DNA of 27,789 nt, taken from positions 1 to 27,789 of the IMG/VR virus record IMGVR_UViG_3300031951_000974; one strand, given 5' to 3'. Position 1 is the stretch's first letter. Each line of letters starts with the position of its first letter. This stretch comes from a virus. The notes below the pieces were generated by a model that worked only from the letters and a program-made list of their open reading frames with translations, did no database searches and was not told the origin of the DNA. This document shows positions 2-18,280 of this stretch, one piece after another. A program made the position numbers and the translations under genes.

Positions 2-3000
2 GAGCAAGAGAACAAGAAAAAAGCACGAGAGTATAATTCTAATTTAGATAAATCGGCAAAAGAATTTGGTTTATCTGATAAGTCAAAATTGTCAGATTAT
101 AGAAAAAAATGGTGGGAACGTGAAATTTCAAAAGAAGAAAAAAAATCCGGCTTTAAATTTACAAAATCTGAAAAGAGTGGACTTATTAAAAGGTGGGCAG
201 ATGGTGATAAAGGATTTGGTGTAAATGGATTTCAAGACGATAAGAAAAAAGCATGGTTTAGAAACTACGAAAAATCTTCTTTAGAAAAGTCTCAAAAGTC
301 AATGATAAGACCTATTGAGAATACATTCTTAAAAGCTGGAGCACAGACTTTAAAAAGAGCTACTAATTTTGTTGCATCCAATAACCCCGAAACATCTAAA
401 CAGGTAAAAAAAGATGTAGCTACAGCTATAAAAGCAATAAAGGATAGTAAAGATCCTGCTAAATTAGCAAAATTACGTAAAGAACTTGATAGGCTGAAAG
501 AAATTGGAATGGACAATGTAGTTCCTTCCGAAGGTGTGGTTTTTATGTATAAGGGAAAGCCATATAAGTTTACAGGTGCATTTGCTCCTATTAATCAAAT
601 AAATGGTACTTTCAAATTTGACAAACCAAAAGACGAAAAACCAGAAGCAAAGCCAAAAGAAAAATATAAAAAAGAAGCAAAAAAAGACGAAAAGAAAAAA
701 GCAGAAAAGCAACCAAAGAGAACTATAGCAGTATTTGCTGGAAGATTTCAACCATTTCATGCAGGTCACTATAGTGTTTATCAAGAACTTGTCAAAAGAT
801 TTGGAAAAGATAATGTGTATATAGCGTCATCAGATGTAACAGATGAAGTCCGTTCACCATTTAAATTTAGTGAAAAACAGGAAATAATTACATCTATGTT
901 TGATGTACCGAAAGACCATGTTGTTCAAGTTAAAAATCCATATCAGCCCGTAGAAGTATTAAAAGGTGCGGGCAAAGACACGGCATATGTCACGGCTGTT
1001 AGTCAGAAAGATGCAGAACGATTAGACAAAGGTGGTAAATACTTTAAAAATTATGATAAAACGCCTAAAGGAACACATAAAAATTATAAAGAAGAAGGTT
1101 ATTATATAATAGCACCTGAAATGCAACTCAAAGTTAATGGTGGTAATATAAGTGGAACACAATTACGTGCTACGTTCGGTAATGAATTTTTATCAGATAG
1201 TGAAAAAAGAGATATATTTACACAAGTATATGGTAAATTTAACAAAGACATATATAATAAAATAGTTAAAAAAACCACCAAAGCAGAAGAAGCTAAAGTA
1301 GAAATAGAAAAAATTGAAAAACAAAAAAAAACAGCAAAAGCAATAACTAAAAAAACTGACACCGGTAAGAAAGATAAAAAAGAAAAATCGGTAAGTTTAG
1401 ATAAAGATACTCGTAAAAAATTAAAGGATGTACTAAAAACTAAAATAAAAAATCCAGAGACTGGTAATAAAATTTATGTTAGCAGTGCATTAAAATATAA
1501 AAAAGGTAGTAAAGTAAGAAGAGCAGCAGAGGATGAAATTAAAAAAGCATTGAAAACCAAAAATGAGAATTTTCCGGGTGGAGTATTTACTGGGTTAACA
1601 TCGCCGGCCGGATATATAAATGGCGCACCTAACCCAAAACGTGTAAAAAATATGAGAAAGAAACTAAATTCAAAAGAAAAAAAATCGGTTAATGAAAATA
1701 TTTCTTTGGTAGATGAAACTATCTTTAATGAATGGGCTTCCGATTATTTCGGAGAATCGGTCGTAGCAGAAGAAATAAAATCTGTTAATACAAAAGACAC
1801 TAGAAAAATTCAATCGTTAAAAGAAGATTCAGAAATTTATAATCCGATAGCTAGGTATCATGTTTTTAATGATAATGATTCTCCTTTAGTACCATTTTTA
1901 TTCAATATAATACAAGAAGAAGTTCAAGAATACATAGATACGCATTCTATTGATGAAGCGGATGAGGAGGGTGGAAAACCTAAAAAAGAAAAAGAACCCT
2001 CAGAAGCGGAAAAAATGGGTTTAGTATATCGTGGTTATGGTAGATATGCAAAAGATAAATCTGGCCCTATAACTCACAAAAGTGAAGATGGTAAAATTAG
2101 ACCACTAACACCTGCCGAAGCTGAAGAAGAAAACAGAAAAGAAAAAGGTGCAGGAGCCGCACCTAAACCTGCAGCACCGGGCGCATCTGCAGCCGCTGGA
2201 GCAGCTCCTGCTGCCGGACAACCGGCAGCAGCTGGTGCAGGAAAAGAACCTGGCAAAAAAGGTCAACAAAAACCACCCGCACCATCACCACAAGATAGAG
2301 CTCAAAATCCACAGGCAATAAAAGCAGGAGAATTTAAATCAGATGCGGATAAAGCTGAGGAGAAAGAAAAAAAAGAAAAAGCAGAAAAGGAAAAAGAATC
2401 TAAATTTGAAAAAGACGCTGAGGAAAGATTAGCAAAACTATCACCAGAAGAGAGAAAGAAAGCTGAAAAAGCGAGAGAGATAGCTGACAGAGAAAATGCT
2501 GCAAAAGCTCAAATGGAAAAAGAAGAAGCTGAAGCTTTTGATACATTAAAAAACGAAGCCTTTGGATTTAAAAACCCAGATGGTACTAAAAAATCAAAAT
2601 CAAATATAGCTAGAGCAATATTTGGAAATGCAACAAGATTGGTAACAAGAGCTGTAAGTCATACTTTAGGTGGTGTAGCAAATGTACTAACACTTGGTCT
2701 TGTAAAAGGATTTAATCCTAAAAATGTAGGAAAATTAGCAGATAAGATGGCGGCTGGTATTACAAAGTTTGTAACAAATCAGGACAATGCTATGGTCAAA
2801 TTTGCTAAAGCATTTCCGCATAATGTAGCACATACAGTACATCATATAGTAGACACAGTTAAAAGAACAGGAAGTGCTGTAAATAATTTAGCACATCTTA
2901 GACATCCTTTGTCACAAAAACGAACTTGGAAAGATTCACAAGGAAAAGAACATAGTGAACACGTGACACGTGGTGATTTTCAAGAGGAAGTAGTAGTTAG

Positions 3001-5509
3001 AGATCCTAAAACAGGTAAGCCTGAAAGAAATATGTTTGGAATGCCCAAAAAAGTATGGGTAGACAAAGAACAACCAAAAGAACCCGATCGTAACGACCCT
3101 AAGTTTAAAAACGATAAACAATATGAGAAAGAAACTAAAAAGTATGAAAAGGAAAAAGCTAAACACGATTTTTATCAATCAGAAATAGAGGTTCCTAATG
3201 ACCATTTTGATAGTCATAAACCAGAAAGTTCTGATAATCCAAGAACAAAGAAAGTTAAAGCAAAAGATGATGTAATTAAAGAACATGAAGCAAATAAAAA
3301 AGCTTGCGTGAGTATGATGAAGATGGCAGCTATGTCAGTAGCTGCTGCTTACGGTGGCCCGTTCTTAAAAGGATTGATGACTAAAGTTGGAGGAAGTACA
3401 GCTGCATCAGCTACTACATCAACTTTAGCTAAAGGTGCTCAAGCTTTATCAGATGCTGCACATAATGGTATGCAATGGTTGTCTACTCAAGGAAAAATAG
3501 GAGAAATGACAGCACAAGGACTTGCTGCCGCTGGAAAAGGTGCAGCCGCGGCCGGTAAAGTAGCCGGTCACGCAGCAGCTGAAGTTGGGCATCATGTTCT
3601 TCACGTTGGTGAAAAGATAGGCCACACTGCAGCTAGTGTAGCACACGCACCAACCGAAGCATTACATTATGCATTTGACGCAATGGGATTGCATGGTAAA
3701 ATAGTAAATGGTATTTCGTATTTTGGAGGTGAAATGATAGGTCATGGTACATTAGAATCATTAGGATTACACGCTCCAGATGCTGAAAAGATTGGCGGTG
3801 GTGCAATAGGAATGCATTCATTGTTAGGCGCAATATCTGAAAGTGAAAGAGCAGAATATAAGATGATGTCCGAACATTTCAATTATTTAAATAAAACCAT
3901 ATTAGTTGAAGGAAAAAAAGTTGGTGAAGAGGACATGAAAAAAGCATCAAGAAATTCATTAGCTTCGGCTATGTTGATAGCTTCAAAAGCTGCACCAAAG
4001 ATTGAAAAATACGAGATGACTGAAGAGCAATATGCTGAGATGTTAGAAAAAGCTGTTATGTTCAAAAAATTGAAAGAAGGGTCTGATAGAGAACAAGAAA
4101 TAGATAAAACAAAAGATGCAGCAGCTGATATGGCAAAATCTTTTTCTAAAATGTTAAAAGAAGACGCCAGCGAAGCTCAATCACATTCTCGTTTAAAACT
4201 TGTAAAAGAGTTTGTTGAATGGTGTTCAGAAAGACTGAAATTAAAAGAAAGGCCCCGTGTAAAAATTTTAAGTAACAAATCTTTACCAGAAGCAGAACAA
4301 CCTTCATTAGGTGGGTATATTCCGCACATTAAAGAAATATATGTTGTTATGGAGGGAAGACTGATAGCAGATGTTTTAAGAACTATTGCACATGAGATGG
4401 TTCATCATAAACAATATGAAATGAATCTCATAAAGAATATAGAGAATGACGGAAAAACGGGCTCTGAAATTGAAAATAAAGCAAATTCTGTAGCAGGAAT
4501 ACTACTTCGTGAGTATGGTAAACTGCAAAAAAAGATATATACCGAATCAACTCAAAAAAAAAATTCAAATGATAAGGTAAAATCTTCGGAAGAACATTAT
4601 GTACCTACTACTGGTATCTTTAGTAGAAATTTAACTCCACAACAAAAAATAGATAAATTAAATCCTGCCAGAGCAATACAAAAAGCTAAAATTTGGCATA
4701 AAACATTTGCTCATCACAATCCGGAAACCGGTGAGGTTGAATCGAAAAATATGTCAGAAGCAATTGTAGATGATACGATTGACTCTACATTTGCTAAAAT
4801 GAAAGAAAAAATAAAAGCAAGTTATCCATCTTTACAATCGATTAAATACGATACACACGACAAAACTTATACTTTCATTTTTAATAGTGAAAAAGAGGCT
4901 AACACTTTTAGAACAAAATTTAAAGGTACAAAATCTCAAATAGCTCAATTTGATAAAATTGATTATGAGCCAAAACAAAGTCCTAACACCTTTTTTGTAA
5001 AATTTAAAACTCAGTTTAAAGAAGATATAAATTTACCGGTAAATGTTGGAGACACTGTACTAATGGGTAAATTCAAAAATAAAAAAGTAAAAGTAAAAGA
5101 TATTGGTAAGGATCACCACGATATGCCTACAATCAATGGTAGACCAGCGGCAACATTCAGAACTAAAAAAGAATCTTTAAATGAAGTAAGTGCATTAGCT
5201 GGTTCAGATGCTCAGCCAGATGGTGCTTTTTTACCAAAAGGTAAAACTAGAATATTGGGTAGAAATGATAATGTAAACAAAACAGATAAGTGGTTCACAA
5301 ATGGTGGATATACTCAGACTGACTTTCCAACTGCTGATGCAATATTTGGAGATGAGGACGCGGAACTTGTAACAGTTTGGTATAGTCATGAAAATGTACC
5401 AAGACAAGAAGAAAAGCTCAAAACGGATTTCATAAAGGAAACTTTGAACACTAATAAAGAGTATGAAAAATATACCAATAAACTATTGGAAATAATTCGG
5501 AAAAAGTAA
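2..5509 (+). CDS. Giant multidomain virion-type protein with nucleotidyltransferase and metallopeptidase domains (5' partial)
   Basis: The frame is open from base 2, so the gene is cut by the left edge and its true start is outside; 1835 residues are visible. A cytidylyltransferase-fold domain (about 722-1270) has the GRFQPFHAGH signature (HxGH at 758-769), a SPFKFSEK stretch and ISGTQLR (1148-1168); this set resembles NadM/NadR-type NMN adenylyltransferases. A Pro/Ala-rich linker lies near 2145-2270. Ala/Gly/His-rich amphipathic segments span about 2590-2900 and 3300-3700. A zincin domain carries HEMVH (4391-4405) with a downstream ENKAN glutamate (4472) as likely third ligand. A small domain with GDTVLMGKFKNKKVK follows at about 5040-5160, then a C-terminal domain. 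Lys/Glu-rich linkers separate the modules, and several (L/I)xE sites that a gp21 protease could cut lie in them. The function of the whole is unknown; an internal head protein delivered with the DNA is my inference. Confidence 0.8.
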   Translation, partial: EQENKKKAREYNSNLDKSAKEFGLSDKSKLSDYRKKWWEREISKEEKKSGFKFTKSEKSGLIKRWADGDKGFGVNGFQDDKKKAWFRNYEKSSLEKSQKSMIRPIENTFLKAGAQTLKRATNFVASNNPETSKQVKKDVATAIKAIKDSKDPAKLAKLRKELDRLKEIGMDNVVPSEGVVFMYKGKPYKFTGAFAPINQINGTFKFDKPKDEKPEAKPKEKYKKEAKKDEKKKAEKQPKRTIAVFAGRFQPFHAGHYSVYQELVKRFGKDNVYIASSDVTDEVRSPFKFSEKQEIITSMFDVPKDHVVQVKNPYQPVEVLKGAGKDTAYVTAVSQKDAERLDKGGKYFKNYDKTPKGTHKNYKEEGYYIIAPEMQLKVNGGNISGTQLRATFGNEFLSDSEKRDIFTQVYGKFNKDIYNKIVKKTTKAEEAKVEIEKIEKQKKTAKAITKKTDTGKKDKKEKSVSLDKDTRKKLKDVLKTKIKNPETGNKIYVSSALKYKKGSKVRRAAEDEIKKALKTKNENFPGGVFTGLTSPAGYINGAPNPKRVKNMRKKLNSKEKKSVNENISLVDETIFNEWASDYFGESVVAEEIKSVNTKDTRKIQSLKEDSEIYNPIARYHVFNDNDSPLVPFLFNIIQEEVQEYIDTHSIDEADEEGGKPKKEKEPSEAEKMGLVYRGYGRYAKDKSGPITHKSEDGKIRPLTPAEAEEENRKEKGAGAAPKPAAPGASAAAGAAPAAGQPAAAGAGKEPGKKGQQKPPAPSPQDRAQNPQAIKAGEFKSDADKAEEKEKKEKAEKEKESKFEKDAEERLAKLSPEERKKAEKAREIADRENAAKAQMEKEEAEAFDTLKNEAFGFKNPDGTKKSKSNIARAIFGNATRLVTRAVSHTLGGVANVLTLGLVKGFNPKNVGKLADKMAAGITKFVTNQDNAMVKFAKAFPHNVAHTVHHIVDTVKRTGSAVNNLAHLRHPLSQKRTWKDSQGKEHSEHVTRGDFQEEVVVRDPKTGKPERNMFGMPKKVWVDKEQPKEPDRNDPKFKNDKQYEKETKKYEKEKAKHDFYQSEIEVPNDHFDSHKPESSDNPRTKKVKAKDDVIKEHEANKKACVSMMKMAAMSVAAAYGGPFLKGLMTKVGGSTAASATTSTLAKGAQALSDAAHNGMQWLSTQGKIGEMTAQGLAAAGKGAAAAGKVAGHAAAEVGHHVLHVGEKIGHTAASVAHAPTEALHYAFDAMGLHGKIVNGISYFGGEMIGHGTLESLGLHAPDAEKIGGGAIGMHSLLGAISESERAEYKMMSEHFNYLNKTILVEGKKVGEEDMKKASRNSLASAMLIASKAAPKIEKYEMTEEQYAEMLEKAVMFKKLKEGSDREQEIDKTKDAAADMAKSFSKMLKEDASEAQSHSRLKLVKEFVEWCSERLKLKERPRVKILSNKSLPEAEQPSLGGYIPHIKEIYVVMEGRLIADVLRTIAHEMVHHKQYEMNLIKNIENDGKTGSEIENKANSVAGILLREYGKLQKKIYTESTQKKNSNDKVKSSEEHYVPTTGIFSRNLTPQQKIDKLNPARAIQKAKIWHKTFAHHNPETGEVESKNMSEAIVDDTIDSTFAKMKEKIKASYPSLQSIKYDTHDKTYTFIFNSEKEANTFRTKFKGTKSQIAQFDKIDYEPKQSPNTFFVKFKTQFKEDINLPVNVGDTVLMGKFKNKKVKVKDIGKDHHDMPTINGRPAATFRTKKESLNEVSALAGSDAQPDGAFLPKGKTRILGRNDNVNKTDKWFTNGGYTQTDFPTADAIFGDEDAELVTVWYSHENVPRQEEKLKTDFIKETLNTNKEYEKYTNKLLEIIRKK

Positions 5510-5543: not shown

Positions 5544-6212
5544 ATGGCAAAAAGAAAATCATTTGAAGAAAAAAATAAGTACATTCATCCAACTCGCAAA
5601 AAAGTCATAGACACTGTTTTTGGTAGAGATGGTAACACTCAAAAAACATTTGGTTACGAAGGTGATGAGTTAAAGAAAAGAGAAATAGGAGAAACATGGA
5701 CTGACTCAAGTGGGGTAACATGGGAACAAAAAGATGGATATAAAACCACAGTTAGTAAATTAGATGATGTCAGACAATATCTTTCTTCATTAAAAGAATG
5801 CAAAGGTACAGATTGTCAGACTAAAATATTTTCTAAAATAGACAAAAAAATAATAATAAAAACAGGAATGTGCGTTGATTGTTTACAAAAATATGAAACA
5901 CAACTAAAAGTAGATGGGACATATCCGTTTTATGAGGATTACAAAATGACTCGTAATAAACTAGCTTATGCTAGAGAATTGAAGCAAAGATATGAAGCTG
6001 CTCTAGATGGTATTAAAGATACTATTGAATTTGTAAACGAAAGAGGTGAAATTGAAACATGGAAATGGGAAATTGAACCAGAAAAAGTTCGTCAAGATTT
6101 AATTAATGATATTCAACAGGTTTCGCATGCAATAGAATTATTGATAGAAAGAAAAGCTAAACTTGAAGATAAGTTAGTTGAACTAAAGCATTCCGAACTA
6201 ATAGTAAAATAA
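5544..6212 (+). CDS. Possible small terminase subunit (gp16 position)
   Basis: This 222-residue soluble protein overlaps the large terminase start by one base (TAATG), so the two are probably translationally coupled. I do not recognise the sequence itself. The middle holds two cysteine pairs, CKGTDC and CVDC about 30 residues apart, which could form a zinc ribbon. The C-terminal half (about residues 125-220) is a charged helical, probably coiled-coil region. Position directly before terL and a helical oligomerisation region fit a small terminase subunit, which recognises DNA and regulates the motor. T4 gp16 is shorter (164 residues) and I see no clear helix-turn-helix, so a different packaging or head function is possible. 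The start ATG has no Shine-Dalgarno sequence. Confidence 0.5.
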   Translation: MAKRKSFEEKNKYIHPTRKKVIDTVFGRDGNTQKTFGYEGDELKKREIGETWTDSSGVTWEQKDGYKTTVSKLDDVRQYLSSLKECKGTDCQTKIFSKIDKKIIIKTGMCVDCLQKYETQLKVDGTYPFYEDYKMTRNKLAYARELKQRYEAALDGIKDTIEFVNERGEIETWKWEIEPEKVRQDLINDIQQVSHAIELLIERKAKLEDKLVELKHSELIVK

Positions 6213-7822
6213 TGGCAGTTCAAGGTCAACCACAAAAAACTCTTAAAGAGATAATCGCAGATGAATATCGTAGATGTGCGTTAGACCCTATACATTTTAT
6301 GAAAAAGTATTGTGTCATTCAACATCCGACACGAGGAAAGATACCTTTTCATTTATATCCGTTTCAAGAAAATTGTATGAACGATTTTAAAAATAATCGT
6401 TTTAATATCATTCTAAAATCACGTCAGCTCGGATTATCAACACTTTCAGCAGGATACATACTTTGGAAAATGCTATTTAACGAAGATTTTAATGCACTAG
6501 TTATTGCTACCAAAGTAACAGTAGCAAAAAATCTTGTTGAAAAAGTTCGTGTCATGCACGACCTTCTTCCTATATGGTTGAGGGATGGAAATAACGCATC
6601 GGTTGAAGATAACAAACTATCACTTAAATTAAAAAATGGTTCACAAGTAAAAGCAATTGCAAGTTCCCCTGACGCAGGTCGTTCTGAAGCATTGTCTCTT
6701 CTTGTAGTGGACGAAGCAGCATTTATTCGTGACATTGATGAAATATGGTTATCAGCACAATCAACACTTTCAACAGGTGGTAGTGCAATTGTACTTTCTA
6801 CTCCAAATGGTGTTGGTAATTGGTTTCATAAAATGTGGGTTGAGGGTGAAAACCAAACAAACGGATTTAACAATATCAAACTACATTGGACAGTCCATCC
6901 CGAAAGAAATCAAGAATGGAGAGACGAGCAGACACGAGTATTAGGAATAAAAGGAGCAGCACAAGAATGTGATTGTGACTTTGTGAGTTCTGGTGATACT
7001 GTCATTGACCCACAATTATTAATGTGGTATAAAGAAACTTATGTAATGGAGCCTGTAGAAAAACGTGGATTTGATGGAAATCTTTGGGTATGGGAGCATC
7101 CAAACTATAGTCGTCAGTATATGGTTGTGGCTGACGTTGCTAGAGGTGATGGTAGTGACTTTTCAACGGCACAGGTCATAGACATTGAAGATTGTTCACA
7201 AGTAGCAGAATATCGTGGCAAACTTGAAACCAAAGATTTTGGTAACTTTTTAACAGCACTTGCGACTGAATATAATAATGCTTTACTTGTAGTAGAAAAT
7301 TCAAATGTAGGATGGGCAACAATTCAACAAATCATAGACAGAGGTTATGGTAACCTATTTTATATGAGTAATGATTTAAGATACATAGATGTTGAACGTC
7401 AAATAACGAATAAACATTATAGAGAAGAAAGACAGATGGTTGCTGGTTTTTCAACCACGTCAAGAACTCGTCCACTTATTATCTCATCATTAGACACCTA
7501 TATAAATAATAAAGATATTCTAATCAGATCATCTCGTCTTGTAGAAGAGTTATTTACTTTTATTTGGAATGCGGGAAGAGCAGAAGCAATGAAAGGATAC
7601 AATGACGACTTAACTATGGCAATGGCAATCGGATTGTGGGTTCGTAATACAGCATTACGTCTTCGTCAAGAGGGAATAGATTTAACAAAAAGTATGTTAG
7701 GTGCATCTCACATTCAAAAACATATAGGAATGTATACTGGAAATATGGCAAATGGTAGTCCATACGAAATTGCAACCGGGAAAAATAATGAAAAAGAGAA
7801 TATAACTTGGTTACTTGGTTAA
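6212..7822 (+). CDS. terL: Large terminase subunit (T4 gp17-like), ATPase and nuclease
   Basis: This 536-residue protein is the DNA-packaging motor that docks on the portal, translocates DNA with ATP and cuts the concatemer. The ATPase half shows a Walker A-type loop SRQLGLST (residues 70-77), Walker B LLVVDE (163-168) and coupling motif LSTPNG (195-200). The RNase H-fold nuclease half shows the acidic metal ligands: D308 in ADVARGDGSD, E362 in VVENSN and D465/D466 in GYNDDLT. Length is a little below T4 gp17 (610). All catalytic positions are present, so it should be active. It follows the putative small subunit with a one-base overlap and has no Shine-Dalgarno sequence. Confidence 0.97.
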   Translation: MAVQGQPQKTLKEIIADEYRRCALDPIHFMKKYCVIQHPTRGKIPFHLYPFQENCMNDFKNNRFNIILKSRQLGLSTLSAGYILWKMLFNEDFNALVIATKVTVAKNLVEKVRVMHDLLPIWLRDGNNASVEDNKLSLKLKNGSQVKAIASSPDAGRSEALSLLVVDEAAFIRDIDEIWLSAQSTLSTGGSAIVLSTPNGVGNWFHKMWVEGENQTNGFNNIKLHWTVHPERNQEWRDEQTRVLGIKGAAQECDCDFVSSGDTVIDPQLLMWYKETYVMEPVEKRGFDGNLWVWEHPNYSRQYMVVADVARGDGSDFSTAQVIDIEDCSQVAEYRGKLETKDFGNFLTALATEYNNALLVVENSNVGWATIQQIIDRGYGNLFYMSNDLRYIDVERQITNKHYREERQMVAGFSTTSRTRPLIISSLDTYINNKDILIRSSRLVEELFTFIWNAGRAEAMKGYNDDLTMAMAIGLWVRNTALRLRQEGIDLTKSMLGASHIQKHIGMYTGNMANGSPYEIATGKNNEKENITWLLG

Positions 7823-7828
7823 ATTCTT

Positions 7829-7838
7829 TATACTTATA
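7829..7838 (+). promoter_or_regulatory. Putative late promoter motif TATACTTATA
   Basis: TATACTTATA sits between the terL stop and the ATG at 7843, with only four bases between motif and start codon. If it works as a -10 element, transcription would begin at or inside the start codon, giving a leaderless message for the next gene. Confidence 0.45.
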
Positions 7839-7842
7839 CAGT

Positions 7843-8532
7843 ATGAATGAAGATCTTCGTAAATGGTTTAAACAAAAATGGGTAAACATCGGCAAAAAAG
7901 TTGATGGTAAACATCCTCCATGCGGAACATCTGGTGAAAAGAGTGGATATGCAAAATGTGTACCTGCGGCAAAAGCAGCAGGTATGACTAAAAAAGAAAA
8001 AGAATCCGCAACTAAAAGAAAGAGAGCAGCTCAAAACAAAGCAGATAGGGGTGGTAAAGAATCAGGTAGCCAAGGTAAAAAACCAATATACGTTAGTACA
8101 AAACCACAAAACGAAGATTGGACAAAAAAATATAAAAAAAGTATTGACTGTAACAACCCCAAAGGATTTAGTCAAAAAGCACATTGTGCCGGTAGAAAAG
8201 CAAGACAAGCTGGTAAAAATACAAAATCAAAATCCGTGAACGAAATGAATATTGAAGAAAAGTTAAACTTATTTTTAGAAAAGAATTGTCCGACAGATGC
8301 GGCTAAATGGTCAGCTTCTAAAGCGGCTGCCAAGAAAAAATTTGATGTATATCCTTCAGCGTATGCAAATGGTTGGGCTGCAAAAAACTACAAATCTAAA
8401 GGTGGTGGTTGGAAAAAATGTAATGAAGGTGATATGAATGGATTGTGCGAAGAGTGTTGGAAAGGATATACTGCCGTTGGTGGTAAAATGAAAAATGGAA
8501 AAATGGTTCCAAATTGTGTACCTAATAAATAA
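7843..8532 (+). CDS. Conserved Lys- and Cys-rich phage protein (DUF5872-like C-terminal part)
   Basis: This is a 229-residue, very basic protein. The start is set at the ATG giving MNEDLRKWFK; an in-frame TTG 12 codons earlier lies inside terL and upstream of the promoter motif. The N-terminal part (WVNIGKK, HPPCG, YAKCVPAAKAAGMTKKEK) and the C-terminal part (KKKFDVYPSAYANGWAAKNY followed by Lys/Gly) resemble small domains that I recall from T4-type marine phages and some giant viruses, the latter annotated as DUF5872. About ten cysteines are spread over four clusters (PCG/KCV, DCNN/HCAG, KCNE/LCEECW, NCV), which suggests metal or nucleic-acid binding. The function is not known. It sits between terminase and portal, where T4 has its sheath and tube genes. 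Confidence 0.7.
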   Translation: MNEDLRKWFKQKWVNIGKKVDGKHPPCGTSGEKSGYAKCVPAAKAAGMTKKEKESATKRKRAAQNKADRGGKESGSQGKKPIYVSTKPQNEDWTKKYKKSIDCNNPKGFSQKAHCAGRKARQAGKNTKSKSVNEMNIEEKLNLFLEKNCPTDAAKWSASKAAAKKKFDVYPSAYANGWAAKNYKSKGGGWKKCNEGDMNGLCEECWKGYTAVGGKMKNGKMVPNCVPNK

Positions 8533-8547
8533 TAAAACTATTTAATT

Positions 8548-8982
8548 ATGAAAAAAGTAAAAAAAGAAAGTCATAACGTAGTAGACCATCCAAATCGTAG
8601 GGATACGGATGTTGATATAAATTATGGTCAAGTTGAGCCATATGAATATGATGTTGAAAATCACGATGACGTAAAAGATTTTATAATTTTTATGCGTGAA
8701 TATACAAAACAATTAAATGAAGCTGGTTGTGGTTGTGTTTTTGAAGCTGAGTATCAAGGTCGTAAAGTTAAGCTTGGAAAGCCAATGGCTGGTGATGTTA
8801 AAAAATTTAAGGTATATGTAAAGAATCCACAAGGAAATGTTGTAAAAGTAAATTTCGGTCAAAAAGGTGTCAAAATTAAAAAAAATAACCCTGGCAGAAG
8901 AGCAAATTTTAGAGCAAGACATAATTGTGATAATCCAGGCCCAAGACATAAAGCTAGATATTGGTCTTGTAGAAAATGGTAA
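8548..8982 (+). CDS. Conserved phage protein with RARHxC...YWSCRxW C-terminus
   Basis: This is a 144-residue protein. The first 65 residues are acidic and probably poorly ordered (DTDVDINYGQVEPYEYDVEN). The rest is a compact basic domain: GRKVKLGKPMAGDVKKFKVY, then NPQGNVVKVNFG, then RARHNCDNPG and a final YWSCRKW. I recall this C-terminal signature from many environmental T4-type phages, where it stands alone or is attached to other head genes, without an assigned function. Two conserved Cys, a His and the aromatic C-terminus suggest a small metal-binding fold. It is 15 bases after the previous stop and before the portal gene, so probably co-expressed with head genes. Confidence 0.75.
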   Translation: MKKVKKESHNVVDHPNRRDTDVDINYGQVEPYEYDVENHDDVKDFIIFMREYTKQLNEAGCGCVFEAEYQGRKVKLGKPMAGDVKKFKVYVKNPQGNVVKVNFGQKGVKIKKNNPGRRANFRARHNCDNPGPRHKARYWSCRKW

Positions 8983-9025: not shown

Positions 9026-10780
9026 ATGGCCGATACATCAATTTTTACAAGACTAAAAAAGTTATTTTCAACCAACACGATAGTTAGGAAAACACCTAAA
9101 GGAGTCAAAGTTATTGATACCGATGAGTATCAAAACATGACAACAAACCTAGTTGATAGGTTTTTAAAAATGCGTGTCACCAACCAATCTAATTTAGGTA
9201 CGGTTGAATCATCAATGGCATATCAACAAATTAGAATAGATTTGTTTAGAGATTATGATTCTATGGATCATGACCCAATTATCAGTTCCGCTTTAGACTT
9301 GTATGCCGATGAATGTACTGCAAAGAATGAATTCGGAAGTGTATTGAAAATACATCATCCCGATGATAAGGTTAAACAAATTCTTGAAAATTTATTTTAT
9401 GATATAATTAATGTTGAGTTTAATCTTTGGCCATGGACTCGTAATCTTGTAAAGTATGGAGACCTGTTTCTTCAATTAGAGATGGCGCCTGAAATTGGTA
9501 TAATTGATGTAAGACCACTATCCGTATATGAGACAAGTCGTATTGAAAACTTTGACCCTAAAAATCCTCAATTAGTAAAGTTTGTTAATGCACCATATCA
9601 AAATCCATATACAACAAGTGCGTTGGGTGCACAGAAAAAAGAATACGAAAATTTTGAGGTAGCACACTTCAGACTATATTCTGATTCAAATTTTCTCCCA
9701 TATGGCAAGTCTATGATTGAAGGATGTCGCCGTGTATGGAAGCAGTTGATGTTAATGGAAGATGCGATGTTGATTCATCGTATTATGAGAGCACCTGAAA
9801 AGAGAATATTTAAAATTGACGTTGGTAATATTCCTCCAAACGAAGTTGATAACTATATGCAAAAAATTATCAACTCATCTAAAAAGACACCATTTGTTGA
9901 TGAAAAAACGGGTGACTACAATTTAAAATTCAATATACAAAACCTCATAGAAGATTATTATATGCCTGTTCGTGGTAGTGATACCGGAACTAGCATAGAT
10001 ACATTAAAGGGTTTGGAGTATAATATGGTAGAAGACATTAATTACCTAAAAGGTAAGTTGATGGCAGCACTTAAAATACCAAAGGCATTTTTGGGATATG
10101 AAGAAGATGTAAATGGAAAAGCAACTTTAGCTGCACAAGATGTTAGATTTGCAAAAACTATAGAACGTATTCAACGCGTAATGATTTCAGAACTTACGAA
10201 GATAGCTATTGTACATTTATATTCACAAGGTATTACAGATTCATCTTTAACAGATTTTAGTCTTGAACTTACTATACCATCAAAAATATATGAGCAAGAA
10301 AGAGTTGAATTATATAGTTCAAAAGTACAGTTAATACAATCCATGCAAGGTACTAAGATGTTTTCAAAAGAATGGATGTATCATACAATCATGGGTATGG
10401 CAAAGGATGAACAAAATGATATAACTCTACAGGTATTAGATGATACAAAACAAGCATTCCGATTATCACAAATAGAAACTCAAGGTGTAGACCCAGCTAA
10501 ACCAACGGGAACAGAAGCACCTACGAATGTAGAGGAAGAAATTCAGAAAATAAAGTCTGAGTTAGAAGAGGATGGTAAAGTTGGTCGTCCTAAAGACGCT
10601 GTAAGATACGGAAAAGATGACCATCCCATGGGAAGAGACCCATTAGGAATTAAGACTTTGAAGCAAAAAGAGGGTTCTGTTAACTATAAACCGAGAAAAA
10701 GCTATTACGAAGAAATATTTAAAGATATGGAAGGTAATAGAAAAAAGATTATATTAACGGAAAATACGACTAAAAAGTAA
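9026..10780 (+). CDS. gp20: Portal vertex protein (T4 gp20-like)
   Basis: This 584-residue protein forms the dodecameric portal through which DNA enters and leaves; it also nucleates prohead assembly and docks the terminase and neck. Family features visible are DPIISSALDLYADECT near residue 85, the WPWTRNLVKYGDLFLQ segment near 135, and the long helical stem and crown region around ALKIPKAFLGYEEDVNGKAT with AAQDVRFAKTIERIQ near 355-385. The C-terminal about 90 residues are charged and low in complexity (VGRPKDAVRYGKDDHP). Length is close to T4 gp20 (524) with a small C-terminal addition. The start ATGG has an A-rich leader (AAATAAAACATA) and no Shine-Dalgarno sequence. Confidence 0.96.
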   Translation: MADTSIFTRLKKLFSTNTIVRKTPKGVKVIDTDEYQNMTTNLVDRFLKMRVTNQSNLGTVESSMAYQQIRIDLFRDYDSMDHDPIISSALDLYADECTAKNEFGSVLKIHHPDDKVKQILENLFYDIINVEFNLWPWTRNLVKYGDLFLQLEMAPEIGIIDVRPLSVYETSRIENFDPKNPQLVKFVNAPYQNPYTTSALGAQKKEYENFEVAHFRLYSDSNFLPYGKSMIEGCRRVWKQLMLMEDAMLIHRIMRAPEKRIFKIDVGNIPPNEVDNYMQKIINSSKKTPFVDEKTGDYNLKFNIQNLIEDYYMPVRGSDTGTSIDTLKGLEYNMVEDINYLKGKLMAALKIPKAFLGYEEDVNGKATLAAQDVRFAKTIERIQRVMISELTKIAIVHLYSQGITDSSLTDFSLELTIPSKIYEQERVELYSSKVQLIQSMQGTKMFSKEWMYHTIMGMAKDEQNDITLQVLDDTKQAFRLSQIETQGVDPAKPTGTEAPTNVEEEIQKIKSELEEDGKVGRPKDAVRYGKDDHPMGRDPLGIKTLKQKEGSVNYKPRKSYYEEIFKDMEGNRKKIILTENTTKK

Positions 10781-12526: not shown

Positions 12527-12718
12527 ATGAAACTAGAACAACTAAGAGCAGTAATACGTGAGGTAATAAAAGAAGAAGAGGAATATCAAGCTTTCTTTAA
12601 AAAGGCTTTAGATAAAGCAGGAAAGTCAATTACAAAAATGAGTGATGCTGAGAAAAAAGCATTCTTTAATAAAATTGACGCAGCTTGGAAAGGTAAAACC
12701 GAAAATAAGAAAAAGTAA
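12527..12718 (+). CDS. Small protein with capsid-targeting-like N-terminus
   Basis: This 63-residue protein starts MKLEQLRAVIREVIKEEEEY, an amphipathic helix with several (L/I)xE-type sites. It continues with KMSDAEKKAFFNKIDAAWKG, a stretch that I recall from small proteins near head genes of other T4-type phages. T4 internal proteins carry an N-terminal targeting helix of similar length that sends them into the prohead and is cut off by gp21. By analogy this could be a packaged small internal protein. It overlaps the protease start by one base (GTAATG), so the two are probably translationally coupled. Confidence 0.5.
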   Translation: MKLEQLRAVIREVIKEEEEYQAFFKKALDKAGKSITKMSDAEKKAFFNKIDAAWKGKTENKKK

Positions 12719-13314
12719 TGAATAAAAATCTTCTTATAGAAACTCACTTGTTTGAAGCAAAGGTTCAAGAAGAATCTAATGGAACGCTTTTGGTTAAAGG
12801 TATATTACAAAGAGCTGGTGCGCCAAATCAAAATAAGAGACGTTATCCTAAAGAAATACTTGAAAGAGAAGTAAAGAAATATCAACAACTCATAAAGGAA
12901 CGTAGAGCTTTAGGTGAACTTGACCATCCTGAATCTCCGATTATTAACCTTAAAAATGTATCTCATAACATCCGTGAAGTATGGTGGGATGGAGACGATG
13001 TTGTTGGTGTAGTAGAAATATTATCAACACCAGCTGGGAATATTCTTCGTGAACTTATAAAAAATAATATACGATTGGGTATCAGTTCTCGTGGATTGGG
13101 AACAGTAAAAGAAATGCACGATGGTACAGTACTTGTGCAAGAAGATTTTGAGTTAGTTGGATGGGACTTTGTTTCTAATCCATCTACTTATGGTGCTTTT
13201 ATGTCACCTATGAATTTGAAGGAGAGTGTTGAACATAAGACCATGCTTGAAGAATGTGGTAAGTGGTGTAAATCACAAGACCTTATGAGAGAAATACTAA
13301 TAGAATTAAACTAA
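12718..13314 (+). CDS. gp21: Prohead core protease (T4 gp21-like)
   Basis: This 198-residue serine protease of the herpesvirus-assemblin type matures the prohead by cutting scaffold, capsid and internal proteins, usually after (L/I)xE. Visible signatures are NKRRYPKEIL (40-48), the catalytic histidine H70 in GELDHPES, and the serine in GISSRG (123/124), followed by LVGWDFVSNPSTYGAFM. Length is close to T4 gp21 (212). The N-terminus (LLIETHLFEAKVQEES) and the tail (LKESVEHK) offer possible self-cleavage sites. It overlaps the upstream small gene by one base. All key residues are present. Confidence 0.95.
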   Translation: MNKNLLIETHLFEAKVQEESNGTLLVKGILQRAGAPNQNKRRYPKEILEREVKKYQQLIKERRALGELDHPESPIINLKNVSHNIREVWWDGDDVVGVVEILSTPAGNILRELIKNNIRLGISSRGLGTVKEMHDGTVLVQEDFELVGWDFVSNPSTYGAFMSPMNLKESVEHKTMLEECGKWCKSQDLMREILIELN

Positions 13315-13320
13315 TAATAT

Positions 13321-13626
13321 ATGTTAAAATTAAAAGGATTAATATCTGAAGTAGCAGAAGACCCAAAAATAGAAAAATTGATTAAAGACATATCTAAAAA
13401 AACAGATATGAATGACCATACTGCATCTATATTGGTATTAGCAAAATTTTTAAAAGATAATAAATCTGTAAAAATTTTAGATGCTATAAATGATATTCAC
13501 CATATAGAACAAAGTATGCCATACGAATTGGGTAAATATAGAAGTTCAATATTGAATGGTTTGTTAGAAACATTAAAAAATAAGTATGACGCTAATACTT
13601 ATATGAAAGTATCAAGTGCATTTTAA
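13321..13626 (+). CDS. Small helical head-region protein
   Basis: This is a 101-residue protein beginning six bases after the protease stop. It starts MLKLKGLISEVAEDPKIEKL, again a short amphipathic helix with an ISE site, like neighbouring genes. The rest (THTASILVLAKFL-like helix, INDIHHIEQSMPYELGKYRS) is predicted helical, with no recognisable family. Location directly after gp21 and the N-terminus suggest an internal or core protein that the protease cuts. This is inference; no function is assigned. Confidence 0.45.
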   Translation: MLKLKGLISEVAEDPKIEKLIKDISKKTDMNDHTASILVLAKFLKDNKSVKILDAINDIHHIEQSMPYELGKYRSSILNGLLETLKNKYDANTYMKVSSAF

Positions 13627-14439: not shown

Positions 14440-14970
14440 ATGGCAACAAATATAAAAGCACTTACTGCAGCAAAAGCAATATTACCAAAAGTATTGGTAA
14501 GTTCATCCGTAGTTATACTTACCGATAGAATGTTTGATGAGTATACTGCTCATTTTTTCTATAGAAGTGCTACTAACTTTTGCAAAGGAGTTGGTTATAA
14601 TAGAGCAGCTGCTTTCTTTGAAAAAGAAGCGGCAAACGAATTAACACACGCCGAGAAGTTACAAAAGTATCTTGTAGATTGGAATGTAACACCAACATTA
14701 CCGGCGGTTAAACCCAACATAGCATTTTCGGGCTTAATTGATATTGTTAATAAGGCTTATCTTTTGGAATATAATCTTTGGGAAAAATACAACGCAGATT
14801 CGCTAAAAGTATTTCAGAACGATTTGTCAACTTTTGATTTTTTACAAGAATTTAGAGAGGGACAGACAAAATCTGTAGCTGAGTATTCCGATTTATTGAA
14901 TGCGGCTCAGTTAATAGACCCTACTAATTTATTAGATGTTTTACACTACGAAGAAATGTATTTTGTATAA
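14440..14970 (+). CDS. Ferritin with complete ferroxidase centre
   Basis: This 176-residue protein has the four-helix ferritin pattern. It aligns without gaps over the key stretches to E. coli FtnA from memory. FDEYTAHFFYRSA matches LELYSSLLYQQM (E34 for E17, Y41 for Y24). ANELTHAEKLQKYL matches QEEMTHMQRLFDYL (E67 for E50, H70 for H53). YLLEYNLWEKYN supplies E110 for E94. STFDFLQEFREGQ matches PTFNFLQWYVSEQ (Q142 for Q127). The A and B iron sites are therefore those of a classical H-type ferritin, while the extra bacterial C site (E49, E126, E129) is lost (N66, G141, K144). The expected role is Fe(II) oxidation and storage, normally in a 24-mer. An N-terminal extension of about 17 residues relative to FtnA is hydrophobic and Ala/Lys-rich. 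The gene overlaps bS21 by one base and lies among head genes, which is unusual. Confidence 0.88.
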   Translation: MATNIKALTAAKAILPKVLVSSSVVILTDRMFDEYTAHFFYRSATNFCKGVGYNRAAAFFEKEAANELTHAEKLQKYLVDWNVTPTLPAVKPNIAFSGLIDIVNKAYLLEYNLWEKYNADSLKVFQNDLSTFDFLQEFREGQTKSVAEYSDLLNAAQLIDPTNLLDVLHYEEMYFV

Positions 14971-15350: not shown

Positions 15351-16634
15351 ATGGCAAACTCAAAATTGTTAAAAGAGGCTATCGCCGACGCTAAAGCTGT
15401 TAAAGAAACTGCTCTAGCAAATGCAAAAATTGCTCTTGAGGAAGCCTTCACTCCACGTTTACAATCTATTCTTTCCAAGAAATTGAGAGAAGAGATGGAA
15501 GACGAAGAGGAAAAGGAAACCGAAATGGCAAACGAGGAGCTCAGTTCATCTGAAATAGGAACTGGCACCGCAAAAGCACCTAAAGAACCTAGCAAGCTAG
15601 AAGCTGGTACGGATCTTTCGGTGGGTATCAAAAAAACATCTGCAGCACCTGGTGCTGAAGGTGAGTACAAAAAAGTAAAGGACATCAATGAAATGGACGG
15701 AGCCGAAGAGGATGAAGTTGACATGGAAACTGATGAAAACCTTTCTGTTGCACAACTTCGTGAAAAACTTCTTAAGCGTTTAGCTGAATTAGATTCCGCA
15801 GAATCTGAGGAGGAAAAAACTGAAGCAGAAGAGCCATCAGCGGAGACGGAAGAAGAGCCCATGGCAGACGCATATATGGGAGAAGACGAACCCGATGATG
15901 ACGAAGACGAAGAAGAGTACGAAGTTACTGGTGAGGAAGAAGAAGACACCGAAGAAGACGAAGATGGTTTAGACCTTGAATCTATTATTCGTGAGTTAGA
16001 AGCTTCCGTAGACGCAGAAGAAGCTCCCGAAGCAGAAGCTGGTGAAGAGGAAATGCAAGAAGATGCACTTTCATCCGGTGAACCCGCAGGAACAGACAAA
16101 GGAGAAGATCCTAAAGTTGTAATGGCGGAAGAAGAGGAAGACAAAAAGGAAGAAACTGATGAAGTTATTGACCTTGAAGAAATCCTTAAGGAAATGGAAG
16201 CTGACCTCAAAGAAGGTGAAGAAGAAGAGAAGAAAGAAAAAGAAGACATGGAAGAAGTTAAGAATCAATTAAAAGAAGCTTACGAAACCATTAATTCTCT
16301 TCGTGGCACTATCAATGAAGTTAATCTTCTAAATGCGAAATTATTGTTCGCAAACAAATTGTTTAGAGCACATAACCTAACCAACGAACAGAAGGTTAAA
16401 GTTATTGAAACTCTTGACAGAACCAAATCAGTTCGTGAAGTTAAACTTGTTTACTCAACTTTAGCTGAAAACTTAAAGTTTGGTTCATCTCAAAAAGTTG
16501 CTAAAAAATCTATCACAGAAGGAATCGCTAGCAAAGTTGTTAAATCAACTAAGCCGGCAGCAGCTAAGCAAGTAATTGCAGAAGGTGCTGATTTTTCTGC
16601 TAGATTTAAAAAGTTAGCAGGTATTATTAGATAA
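15351..16634 (+). CDS. gp22: Prohead core scaffold protein (T4 gp22-like)
   Basis: This 427-residue protein is extremely acidic in its middle (Glu/Asp runs at about residues 115-305), with helical coiled-coil ends. It stands directly before the capsid gene, as gene 22 does in T4. The C-terminal part (ETINSLRGTINEVNLLNAKL, NKLFRAHNLTNEQKVKVIET, VREVKLVYSTLAENL) is the conserved scaffold portion in environmental T4-type phages. T4 gp22 is 269 residues; the extra length is the acidic repeats. It would form the internal core on which gp23 assembles and then be degraded; many (L/I)xE sites (LKEA, IREL, LEEI, INEV, ITEG) fit digestion by gp21. The start AATTAACAAAATGG has no Shine-Dalgarno sequence. 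Codon use is more C-ending than in earlier genes. Confidence 0.88.
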   Translation: MANSKLLKEAIADAKAVKETALANAKIALEEAFTPRLQSILSKKLREEMEDEEEKETEMANEELSSSEIGTGTAKAPKEPSKLEAGTDLSVGIKKTSAAPGAEGEYKKVKDINEMDGAEEDEVDMETDENLSVAQLREKLLKRLAELDSAESEEEKTEAEEPSAETEEEPMADAYMGEDEPDDDEDEEEYEVTGEEEEDTEEDEDGLDLESIIRELEASVDAEEAPEAEAGEEEMQEDALSSGEPAGTDKGEDPKVVMAEEEEDKKEETDEVIDLEEILKEMEADLKEGEEEEKKEKEDMEEVKNQLKEAYETINSLRGTINEVNLLNAKLLFANKLFRAHNLTNEQKVKVIETLDRTKSVREVKLVYSTLAENLKFGSSQKVAKKSITEGIASKVVKSTKPAAAKQVIAEGADFSARFKKLAGIIR

Positions 16635-16654: not shown

Positions 16655-18280
16655 ATGGACGTTAGAAAATTAATGAATGGCGCTAATCCCCAGAGCGTAA
16701 TGCTTGAGCAGACCCGTGGTCTTAAGAGCAAGTGGGAAAAGACTGGCCTTTTAGAAGGCATTAAGTCTGAAACTCAGAAGCACGGAATGTCCGTGATTCT
16801 TGAAAACCAAGCAAAACAATTGCTTGATGAAGCAACTCGTACAGGTACCTCCGCAGGTTCTGAAGAATGGGCTGGTGTAGCTCTTCCTCTTGTTCGCCGT
16901 ATTTTCGGTAGCATCGCAGCGAAAGAGTTCGTTAGTGTACAGCCTATGAACTTACCTTCAGGTCTTATCTTCTACATGGACTTCAAATATGGTTCAACCG
17001 CAGGTAAAGACGTTAATCGTCCTGCTTCTGGTTCTTCACTTTATGGTGGAACTGGTTCAGTTGGTTTGGACAACTTAGATTCAAGCACTTATAAGCTTGG
17101 TTCTACTCAAAACACAGATGGTGGTCTTTATGGTGCAGGTCGTTTTGGATATACCATTAACGATGCCGCTACTAGCTTAAGTGCAACTTTAGCATCTGCT
17201 TCATTAGCAGACATCGCTTTTGACCTTAGCAACACTACCATTTCCGCATCTTATGCAGCTGGTAAGATGAAGAAATTGACTGTAGCTATTCCTTCTGATG
17301 CAGATTTCAATGCAGTTCGTGTATTTGACTTTGCACAATCAGGTTCAGGCTACACTCAGTATCCTCAATTCACTGTAAAGAATGGTTCAAACGTAGTATT
17401 TATCGCAGAAGTAGCAGCTGCAGGTACTTACGCTGGCGCAACAGCTGTTGATGGTCAGTTGAAGTATGTAAAACAGCCAGTTGATTACAACCGTGGTGAT
17501 TTCGAAGATAAAGGTTCCGACCTTCCTATCACAGAAATTGAACTTGAACTTAAGAGTGAGCCTATCGTGGCTAAGACTCGTAAGTTAAAGGCTATCTGGA
17601 CTCCTGAATTAGCACAAGACTTGAATGCATACCATTCAATTGATGCTGAAGCAGAATTGACCCAGATGCTTTCTGAATACATCTCTCTTGAAATCGACCT
17701 AGAAATCCTTGAGATGCTTCAGCAGAACGCATTGACTACTGAGTATTGGTCAGCAAAAGTTGGATACGAGTGGGATGGTGCTTCGTTTATAATTGATTCA
17801 AACGCAGCAGCAGCTTCTGCATATCAGAAGAACACTTGGTTCCAAACTCTTGGTATCAAATTGCAGAAAGTTTCTAACAAGATTCATCAGTTAACTATGA
17901 GAGGTGGTGCAAACTTTATCGTTGTATCTCCTAACGTAGCAACTATCCTTGAGTCTATGAACGGATTCTCTGCAAATCCTGGTAAGGATGCATTGCAATT
18001 CGCAGCAGGTGTAACTAACATCGGTCAGATTTCTAACCGTTACGATGTGTATAAGAACCCTTACATGACTGAGAATGTAATTCTTCTTGGTTTCAAAGGT
18101 TCTAACTTCTTTGAAACAGGAGCAGTTTACGCACCGTATGTACCGCTCATCATGACTCCTCTAGTGTACGATCCTACGAACTTTACTCCTCGTAGAGGCG
18201 TAATGACTCGCTACGCTAAGAAGATTGTTCGTCCTGAGTTCTACGGTAAGATTGTTGTTGGTGGTCTTGAAAGCCTCTAA
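16655..18280 (+). CDS. gp23: Major capsid protein (T4 gp23-like)
   Basis: This 541-residue HK97-fold capsid protein is close in length to T4 gp23 (521). Recognisable parts are the N-terminal region MDVRKLMNGANPQSVMLEQT, EWAGVALPLVRRIFGSIAAK, PMNLPSGLIFYMDFKYG, KLKAIWTPELAQDLNAYHSI and the C-terminal FTPRRGVMTRYAKKIVRPEF. A gp21-type site LLDE lies at residues 56-59, so maturation probably removes the first 59 residues, comparable to cleavage after E65 in T4. The gene follows the scaffold by 20 A-rich bases and is closed by a strong terminator. It has the most C/G-ending codons of the window, consistent with very high expression. I see no separate gp24-like vertex protein. Confidence 0.97.
   Translation: MDVRKLMNGANPQSVMLEQTRGLKSKWEKTGLLEGIKSETQKHGMSVILENQAKQLLDEATRTGTSAGSEEWAGVALPLVRRIFGSIAAKEFVSVQPMNLPSGLIFYMDFKYGSTAGKDVNRPASGSSLYGGTGSVGLDNLDSSTYKLGSTQNTDGGLYGAGRFGYTINDAATSLSATLASASLADIAFDLSNTTISASYAAGKMKKLTVAIPSDADFNAVRVFDFAQSGSGYTQYPQFTVKNGSNVVFIAEVAAAGTYAGATAVDGQLKYVKQPVDYNRGDFEDKGSDLPITEIELELKSEPIVAKTRKLKAIWTPELAQDLNAYHSIDAEAELTQMLSEYISLEIDLEILEMLQQNALTTEYWSAKVGYEWDGASFIIDSNAAAASAYQKNTWFQTLGIKLQKVSNKIHQLTMRGGANFIVVSPNVATILESMNGFSANPGKDALQFAAGVTNIGQISNRYDVYKNPYMTENVILLGFKGSNFFETGAVYAPYVPLIMTPLVYDPTNFTPRRGVMTRYAKKIVRPEFYGKIVVGGLESL

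Follow-up and report, generated by a model that had tools for sequence, protein, structure and literature searches.

A putative capsid-targeted polyprotein in a T4-like phage, with candidate prohead-protease sites at its module borders

The 27,789-base sequence analyzed here (IMG/VR record IMGVR_UViG_3300031951_000974, positions 1 to 27,789; hereafter the window) is a fragment of a T4-like phage, and its first open reading frame (ORF), at positions 2-5509 on the forward strand, encodes the C-terminal part of a giant multidomain protein whose enzyme modules are shuffled among relatives. To judge from comparisons among these relatives, the giant gene quite probably specifies a capsid-targeted polyprotein that is cut at its module borders by a gp21-family prohead protease. 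The ORF is open at its 5' end, with no start codon within the window, and corresponds to the C-terminal 1835 residues (aa 211-2045) of a 2045-residue protein. The full gene is carried by contig L002 (L002:7825-13962), which is 100% identical to the window over the match; its start codon is at L002:7825, and 210 residues of the protein fall to the left of the window. The N-terminus of the full-length protein is MDFKNEEIMLLNE↓GGAAGHLAHPFED, where the arrow, here and below, marks a putative cleavage point or junction. A preliminary description of the window had portrayed the 1835-residue chain as unrelated modules joined by Lys/Glu or Pro/Ala linkers, and the reading frame, domain scans and an AlphaFold2 (AF2) model bear this out. 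Its further proposal, that a single chain enters the prohead and is cut there by a gp21-type protease, gains support at the sequence level from the border enrichment, the P3 and P1 preferences, the leaders, the linked protease and the single-gene modules described below.

The published specificity of T4 gp21 is L/I-X-E (PMC9026906), and the placement of this motif was compared across 40 non-redundant giant ORFs from 80 IMG/VR loci (set 1), aligned by all-against-all BLAST. Module borders were taken as BLAST alignment ends, defined blind to the motif, and shifted positions served as the control. An (L/I)xE tripeptide is present at 34.4% of 244 borders, compared with 12.9% of shifted positions (about 2.7-fold, z 10.5, 0/200). 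There is no border enrichment for (L/I)xD, (L/I)xK or (L/I)xQ in the same 40 giants, and the remaining genes in these loci have no excess of (L/I)xE at their borders. Because homologous borders lack independence, they were collapsed in several ways: across 162 distinct junction types the figures are 35.6% versus 13.8% (z 9.5), and the enrichment has a z of 10.7 across 125 upstream contexts and of 3.8 across 87 downstream modules. Clustering by any shared 5-mer chained nearly everything into 16 clusters (z 1.5) and was uninformative, and junction-type clustering was used instead. Eighteen giants from a second scan (set 2) provide an independent replication, with the motif at 40.7% of borders and 12.7% of shifted positions (z 5.8).

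The residues around border glutamates also resemble a protease recognition site. P3 favors Ile (log2 +1.75) and Leu (+1.54), P2 favors Asn, and P1' favors Ser, Asn and Gly; nothing like the P3 preference is seen for Asp or Lys near borders. Since P3 Ile/Leu and P1 Glu match the published L/I-X-E, the border consensus is that of gp21. The same signature occurs in the phage's own head proteins, including the major capsid protein, the scaffold and the leader of the protease (LLIE↓THLFE↓A). In 34/35 and 17/17 cases (51/52 together) an (L/I)xE stands before the start of the RNA-ligase-like module, and one tally gave 19 distinct contexts upstream of it. Codon use for Leu, Ile, Glu and Asn at border sites equals the genome background, and the constraint thus acts on the protein and not on the DNA. 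Within module interiors of set 1 the motif is depleted (267 observed, 398 expected; ratio 0.67, z -7.4), specifically so, and the corresponding ratio in other genes is 1.26.

Leaders provide a second line of evidence. In the T4 capsid-targeting leader, positions 4 and 7 serve targeting and positions 8 and 10 serve processing (PMC9026906), and both IPII and IPIII of T4 begin MKTYQEFIAE↓A. A 10-residue start in this register is found in 31 of 154 giants (a redundant set; 12 distinct), for example MKGLAKFLVE, MNELSKFLVE and MSTLSTFLAE, versus 16 of 7329 internal methionines. The leader of the protein studied here, MDFKNEEIMLLNE↓GG, ends in (L/I)xE as well. Several modules also exist as genes of their own, which suggests that the released pieces could function separately. 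The ligase is a separate gene with a leader in two loci (MIRLQKILNEVLLKE↓GGAYGH; L019 and L044) and in the huge phage LR756500 (MKFLKSYEEFLNENLILE↓GGSYGH), a lone zincin gene in Synechococcus phage B23 (gp332) carries the leader MNYKQFLRE↓S, and another module begins MKLLIRVLKE↓IDPHTKGL as its own gene, matching KKKLNE↓IEAKTKGL within a giant. The cultured Microcystis phage Mel-JY01 (protein WWT39297.1, leader MGKLINILLSE) has the reversed order, with the adenylyltransferase, then NIIAE↓GGLGGHMNHPF, then the ligase.

Among the 27 giants with at least 9.5 kb of sequence after them, 25 have a gp21 homologue 6-9 kb downstream. The two exceptions are L073 and L074, where the called ORF is cut short by an intein and the protease may therefore lie past the sequenced stretch. 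In both of these loci (L074:3117-9649, and L073) the intein interrupts the ligase exactly inside motif I (K↓TDG), and its halves are in two ORFs: the giant ends ..TREK↓CIAGDTIIH, the second ORF contains ..YANDILVHN↓TDGQ, and an endonuclease-like ORF lies between them. This layout points to a split intein, with the polyprotein joined by trans-splicing.

Further short genes share leader-like starts. Directly after the protease gene of the window, a 101-residue ORF begins with MLKLKGLISE (13321..13350, forward strand), a capsid-targeting-like leader in T4 register. Many short genes near the head cluster (for example at window 13321, L021:5388 and L067:18150) begin with a leader of a second family, MIKLxxILKE / MIRLKDILNE, which suggests that many more proteins may be capsid-targeted. 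Among the other genes of the loci, the T4-register pattern fits 35 of 758 gene starts.

The modules of the giant protein are described from the N-terminus (all features of this protein are on the forward strand). Residues 16-417 form an RNA-ligase-like nucleotidyltransferase module, of which the C-terminal half is in the window (2..622); its predicted local distance difference test (pLDDT) values are mostly 80-95 in the AF2 model. Motifs IV (PSEGVVF) and V (YKFTG) fall inside the window and motif I (EKLDG) upstream of it, and the key residues of motif I (KxDG, here KLDG), motif IV (EG, here SEG) and motif V (the K of YK) are invariant in 27 sequences. The best Foldseek match is T4 RNA ligase 2 (Rnl2), with a probability of 0.98 but an E value of 0.017, and the fold thus lends modest support to the RNA-ligase identity. 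A Lys/Glu-rich linker follows (aa 418-448; 623..715; pLDDT < 50). Because there is no (L/I)xE site in it, the ligase and the next module probably stay joined. That module (aa 449-660; 716..1351) resembles nicotinamide mononucleotide (NMN) adenylyltransferases; its HxGH and ISGTxxR motifs are intact and invariant, it matches Pfam PF01467 (E 3e-7) and PDB profiles of NMN adenylyltransferases (E 5e-7), and Foldseek pairs it with 1k4k (probability 1.0, E 0.009).

The adenylyltransferase-like module is succeeded by small modules. The central part of the chain, aa 863-1490 (1958..3841), comprises a GRY module, a Pro/Ala linker and an Ala-rich helical region, and would be released as a predicted product of 67 kDa. 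It is followed by a zincin metallopeptidase-like module (aa 1606-1724; 4187..4543; pLDDT mostly 84-95 in the AF2 model), in which HEMVH (HExxH) and a downstream Glu are invariant in 18 sequences. The small GDTVLMGKFKNKK module (aa 1878-1935; 5003..5176) is a homology unit found in most relatives in many contexts, and the C-terminal module (aa 1939-2022; 5186..5437) occupies other positions in L078, L052, L015 and L067. Pfam and PHROG scans of the giant protein gave meaningful scores only for CTP_transf_like and cytidyltransferase. Foldseek searches with multi-domain models returned nothing below E 0.001, and the zincin matches were weak.

The preliminary description had listed five (L/I)xE tripeptides in or near module borders. 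All five are where it placed them (E818, E862, E1490, E1597 and E1938), and they are five of the 18 in the whole protein. Their proposed location at borders holds well for E862, E1597 and E1938, which are at or just before motif-blind borders and are kept in relatives, and less well for E1490 and E818. The best-supported candidate sites, to judge from conservation, are E13, E1597 and E1938, followed by E862, E2023, E1513 and E1490. At E13, the end of the leader before the ligase, Glu is kept in 34/35 relatives. E1597 (LKE↓DAS; 4154..4162) is directly before the zincin; 14 homologues span this site, of which 11 retain Glu and 9 retain (L/I)xE, with aligned tripeptides LKE, LNE, IKE, INE and MKE in relatives. 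E1938 (LNE↓VSALAG; 5177..5185; pLDDT < 40) adjoins a border at aa 1936, with Glu kept in 12 and (L/I)xE in 10 of 16.

Among the other candidates, E862 (IDE↓ADEEGG; 1949..1957) precedes the GLVYRGYGRY module, with a homology border at aa 875 and (L/I)xE at the equivalent position in both of two relatives. E2023 (IKE↓TLN; 5432..5440) follows the C-terminal module, and two relatives have FKE and IKE there with another module next. E1513 (LVE↓GKK; 3902..3910; pLDDT < 50) has (L/I)xE nearby in 4/4 relatives whose homology begins just downstream. For E1490 (ISE↓SER; 3833..3841) the evidence is moderate to weak, with INE at the same place in one relative. E818 (LKE↓DSEIYNPI; 1817..1825) has moderate support; it is not kept in the five spanning alignments, and it is plausible because IDE precedes a similar YNPI module elsewhere (TTFRTIDE↓TELYNPIF). 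In the AF2 model of the C-terminal part, E1490 and E1938, as well as E1513, are in regions with pLDDT < 50; E1597, immediately ahead of the zincin, has moderate confidence, and E1626 belongs to the zincin fold itself. E1626, E1640, E1655 and E1714 probably escape cutting and were rejected as sites, since they are in the confidently folded zincin or homologues do not keep the motif there; E377, in the ligase, was rejected as well (conserved in 0/34).

By extrapolation from T4, from which the cutting, packaging and ejection steps are drawn, the chain would be synthesized late, alongside the head genes, and drawn into the prohead core by the short leader at its N-terminus, the last residues of which are (L/I)xE. 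Once active, the gp21-family protease would cut after (L/I)xE at module borders inside the prohead, with expected products of approximately 90 kDa (ligase-adenylyltransferase), 67 kDa (the helical piece), approximately 39 kDa (zincin and KFKNKK piece) and approximately 9.5 kDa (the C-terminal piece). These would remain with the DNA and then be carried into the next host, their probable task there being to repair or protect RNA and nicotinamide adenine dinucleotide (NAD+) against host defence. An early role in repairing RNA and NAD+ during infection is suggested because the catalytic residues of the ligase and the adenylyltransferase are conserved, and because one relative (L018:9944-15301) combines in one chain an NMN adenylyltransferase-like module, a CCA-adding enzyme (PolyA_pol, Pfam E 2e-29), an HD module and an RNA-ligase-like module. 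This L018 chain looks like a packaged tRNA and NAD+ repair kit. NAD+ reconstitution is known as a phage counter-defence via other enzymes (PMC12774641). It is reasonably likely that T4-like aquatic phages of a widespread group carry an exchangeable cassette polyprotein of RNA-repair, NAD+-repair and peptidase modules, which are bounded by prohead-protease sites and swapped between phages; a single leader would load them at fixed stoichiometry, and after release in the prohead they would be delivered with the genome as a ready-made counter-defence kit.

The alternative that the chain stays uncut through packaging and injection and acts as a polyvalent effector, with (L/I)xE serving only in the leader and in incidental trimming, agrees with the description of polyvalent proteins as multidomain injected effectors (PMC5512222, PMC9503650). 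It is nevertheless improbable, since the motif is also at internal borders in many unrelated contexts and is avoided in the module interiors of set 1, and a 2045-residue multi-domain chain would have to cross a portal that is about 30 Å wide in T4 (PMC9026906). Auto-processing by the embedded zincin, with gp21 uninvolved, has in its favor the intact HExxH zincin in the chain and the proposal that embedded peptidases are the release route in polyvalent proteins (PMC5512222). However, the 19 giants that lack the zincin motif show the same enrichment (37.1% versus 13.7%, z 7.0), which makes zincin self-cutting unnecessary; the border consensus is that of gp21, and the zincin also exists as a lone gene with a leader. 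This explanation is thus very improbable.

A role in the prohead core or as scaffold, as for gp22, gp67 and gp68, in which the protein is shredded and exits the head, its domains being relics, would fit the cutting of T4 core proteins into many pieces by gp21 and the charged linkers and helical region of the chain. Against this, the catalytic residues of the ligase, adenylyltransferase and zincin are invariant across divergent relatives, the phage has a separate gp22-like scaffold, and the sites in set 1 avoid module interiors, unlike those of a shredded scaffold; such a role is highly improbable. Finally, heavy module shuffling needs recombination joints, and the border motif could in principle be a by-product of short DNA sequences common to such joints, with no protease site involved. 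The likelihood of this is minimal, given that border codons follow the background, that clustering of the border contexts gave 112 groups upstream and 86 downstream, and that the motif is at the protein level and matches the leaders of single genes.

Cutting by the gp21-family protease at module borders remains the preferred reading, and several observations weigh against it. The motif is at only about 35-40% of homology borders, a minority put down both to the imprecise ends of high-scoring segment pairs and to borders at which P3 is Phe, Tyr or Met or a site is lacking. In the protein studied here the total of 18 (L/I)xE tripeptides is at chance (18.9 expected from local shuffles). Because the count matches composition, a list of sites from a single sequence is no evidence alone, and the raw motif count was dropped as evidence. 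The interior depletion is weak and non-specific in the smaller second set (ratio 0.86, the same as for (L/I)xD), and is thus treated as supporting only. The leader MDFKNEEIMLLNE is outside the strict T4 register. Injection and an effector role are proposed by analogy with the internal proteins of T4, and the term effector also draws on the conserved catalytic residues and the genomic context. The sequences themselves show that modules are shuffled, that (L/I)xE is specific to borders, that relatives have T4-like leaders, that a gp21 homologue is linked and that catalytic residues are intact.

The closest parallel is with the T4 internal proteins (IPI-III and Alt), which likewise have a leader ending in (L/I)xE, with the leaders of the relatives in register with T4 positions 4, 7, 8 and 10, a gp21-family protease encoded nearby, and packaging with DNA, which is predicted here. 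They differ in being single proteins with a leader each, whereas the giant holds several enzymes with sites between them; injection has been shown in T4 and would follow by analogy for the giant protein. The polyvalent proteins of phages and plasmids are also large chains of shuffled enzyme modules, some of them with metallopeptidases, and are thought to be packaged and injected; the authors who described them (PMC5512222) themselves draw the polyprotein analogy but ascribe release to embedded peptidases, and a text search of that paper found no T4-type leaders or prohead-protease sites at borders. A further parallel is with the ejection proteins of the giant phages SPN3US and phiKZ (PMC10052503), in which a protease related to gp21 cleaves many head proteins behind Glu and these proteins enter the head along with the DNA; unlike the present case, the cleavage in the accounts consulted is propeptide trimming and not release of several unrelated enzymes from one chain, and the phiKZ motif is S/A-x-E. 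Eukaryotic RNA virus polyproteins similarly hold several enzymes per chain, cut at borders by a viral protease, but have no proteases or domains in common with the giant, for which a head-maturation protease is expected to cut inside the prohead.

Capsid targeting, gp21 and polyvalent proteins are thus known already, and the element that would be new is the joining of several enzymes in one chain that carries prohead-protease sites where its modules meet. Neither a description of a prohead-protease-cut multi-enzyme polyprotein nor a proteome of, or paper on, a carrier phage was found among open-licence PMC papers. If the proposal is correct, a T4-like head-maturation protease doubles as a polyprotein-processing protease, and this would be a bacterial-virus counterpart of the animal-virus polyprotein and a natural case of multi-protein cargo loaded via one short leader. 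Border (L/I)xE motifs would then act as a reading rule, by which packaged enzymes and their product limits could be recognized from sequence in many uncultured phages, and NAD+- and RNA-repair enzymes in the virion could act ahead of any phage gene expression.

The giant gene is followed in the window by the terminase large subunit (6212-7822), the portal (9026-10780) and the gp21-family prohead protease (peptidase S77; 12718..13314, forward strand; Pfam PF03420 E 7e-34, PHROG 207 E 1e-54), whose own leader, MNKNLLIE↓THLFE↓AK, was set beside that of T4 gp21. An ORF at 15351..16634 (forward strand) is gp22-like by position and composition and contains many (L/I)xE motifs, including LLKE↓A, SITE↓G and VIAE↓G; a PHROG scan gave no match for it. 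The major capsid protein (16655-18280; PHROG 138 E 1e-74) has a predicted maturation site at LLDE↓ATRTG (LDE, 16823..16831, forward strand) that resembles FLTE↓AEIGG of T4 gp23 when the sequences are compared by eye. The genes for the prohead protease and the scaffold flank one for a ferritin-like protein (14440-14970; Pfam Ferritin E 1e-16). Collagen-like repeats are numerous in a large ORF that is open at the window end (23926-27789; Pfam Collagen E 2e-103); its G+C content is above that of its surroundings, and it is probably a fibre. Two small ORFs 3' of the terminase (7807-8982) have domains matching DUF5872 (above the cut-off) and DUF5754 (below the cut-off); they hold (L/I)xE motifs, such as QLNE↓AGCGC at 8713-8721, and are possibly further packaged modules.
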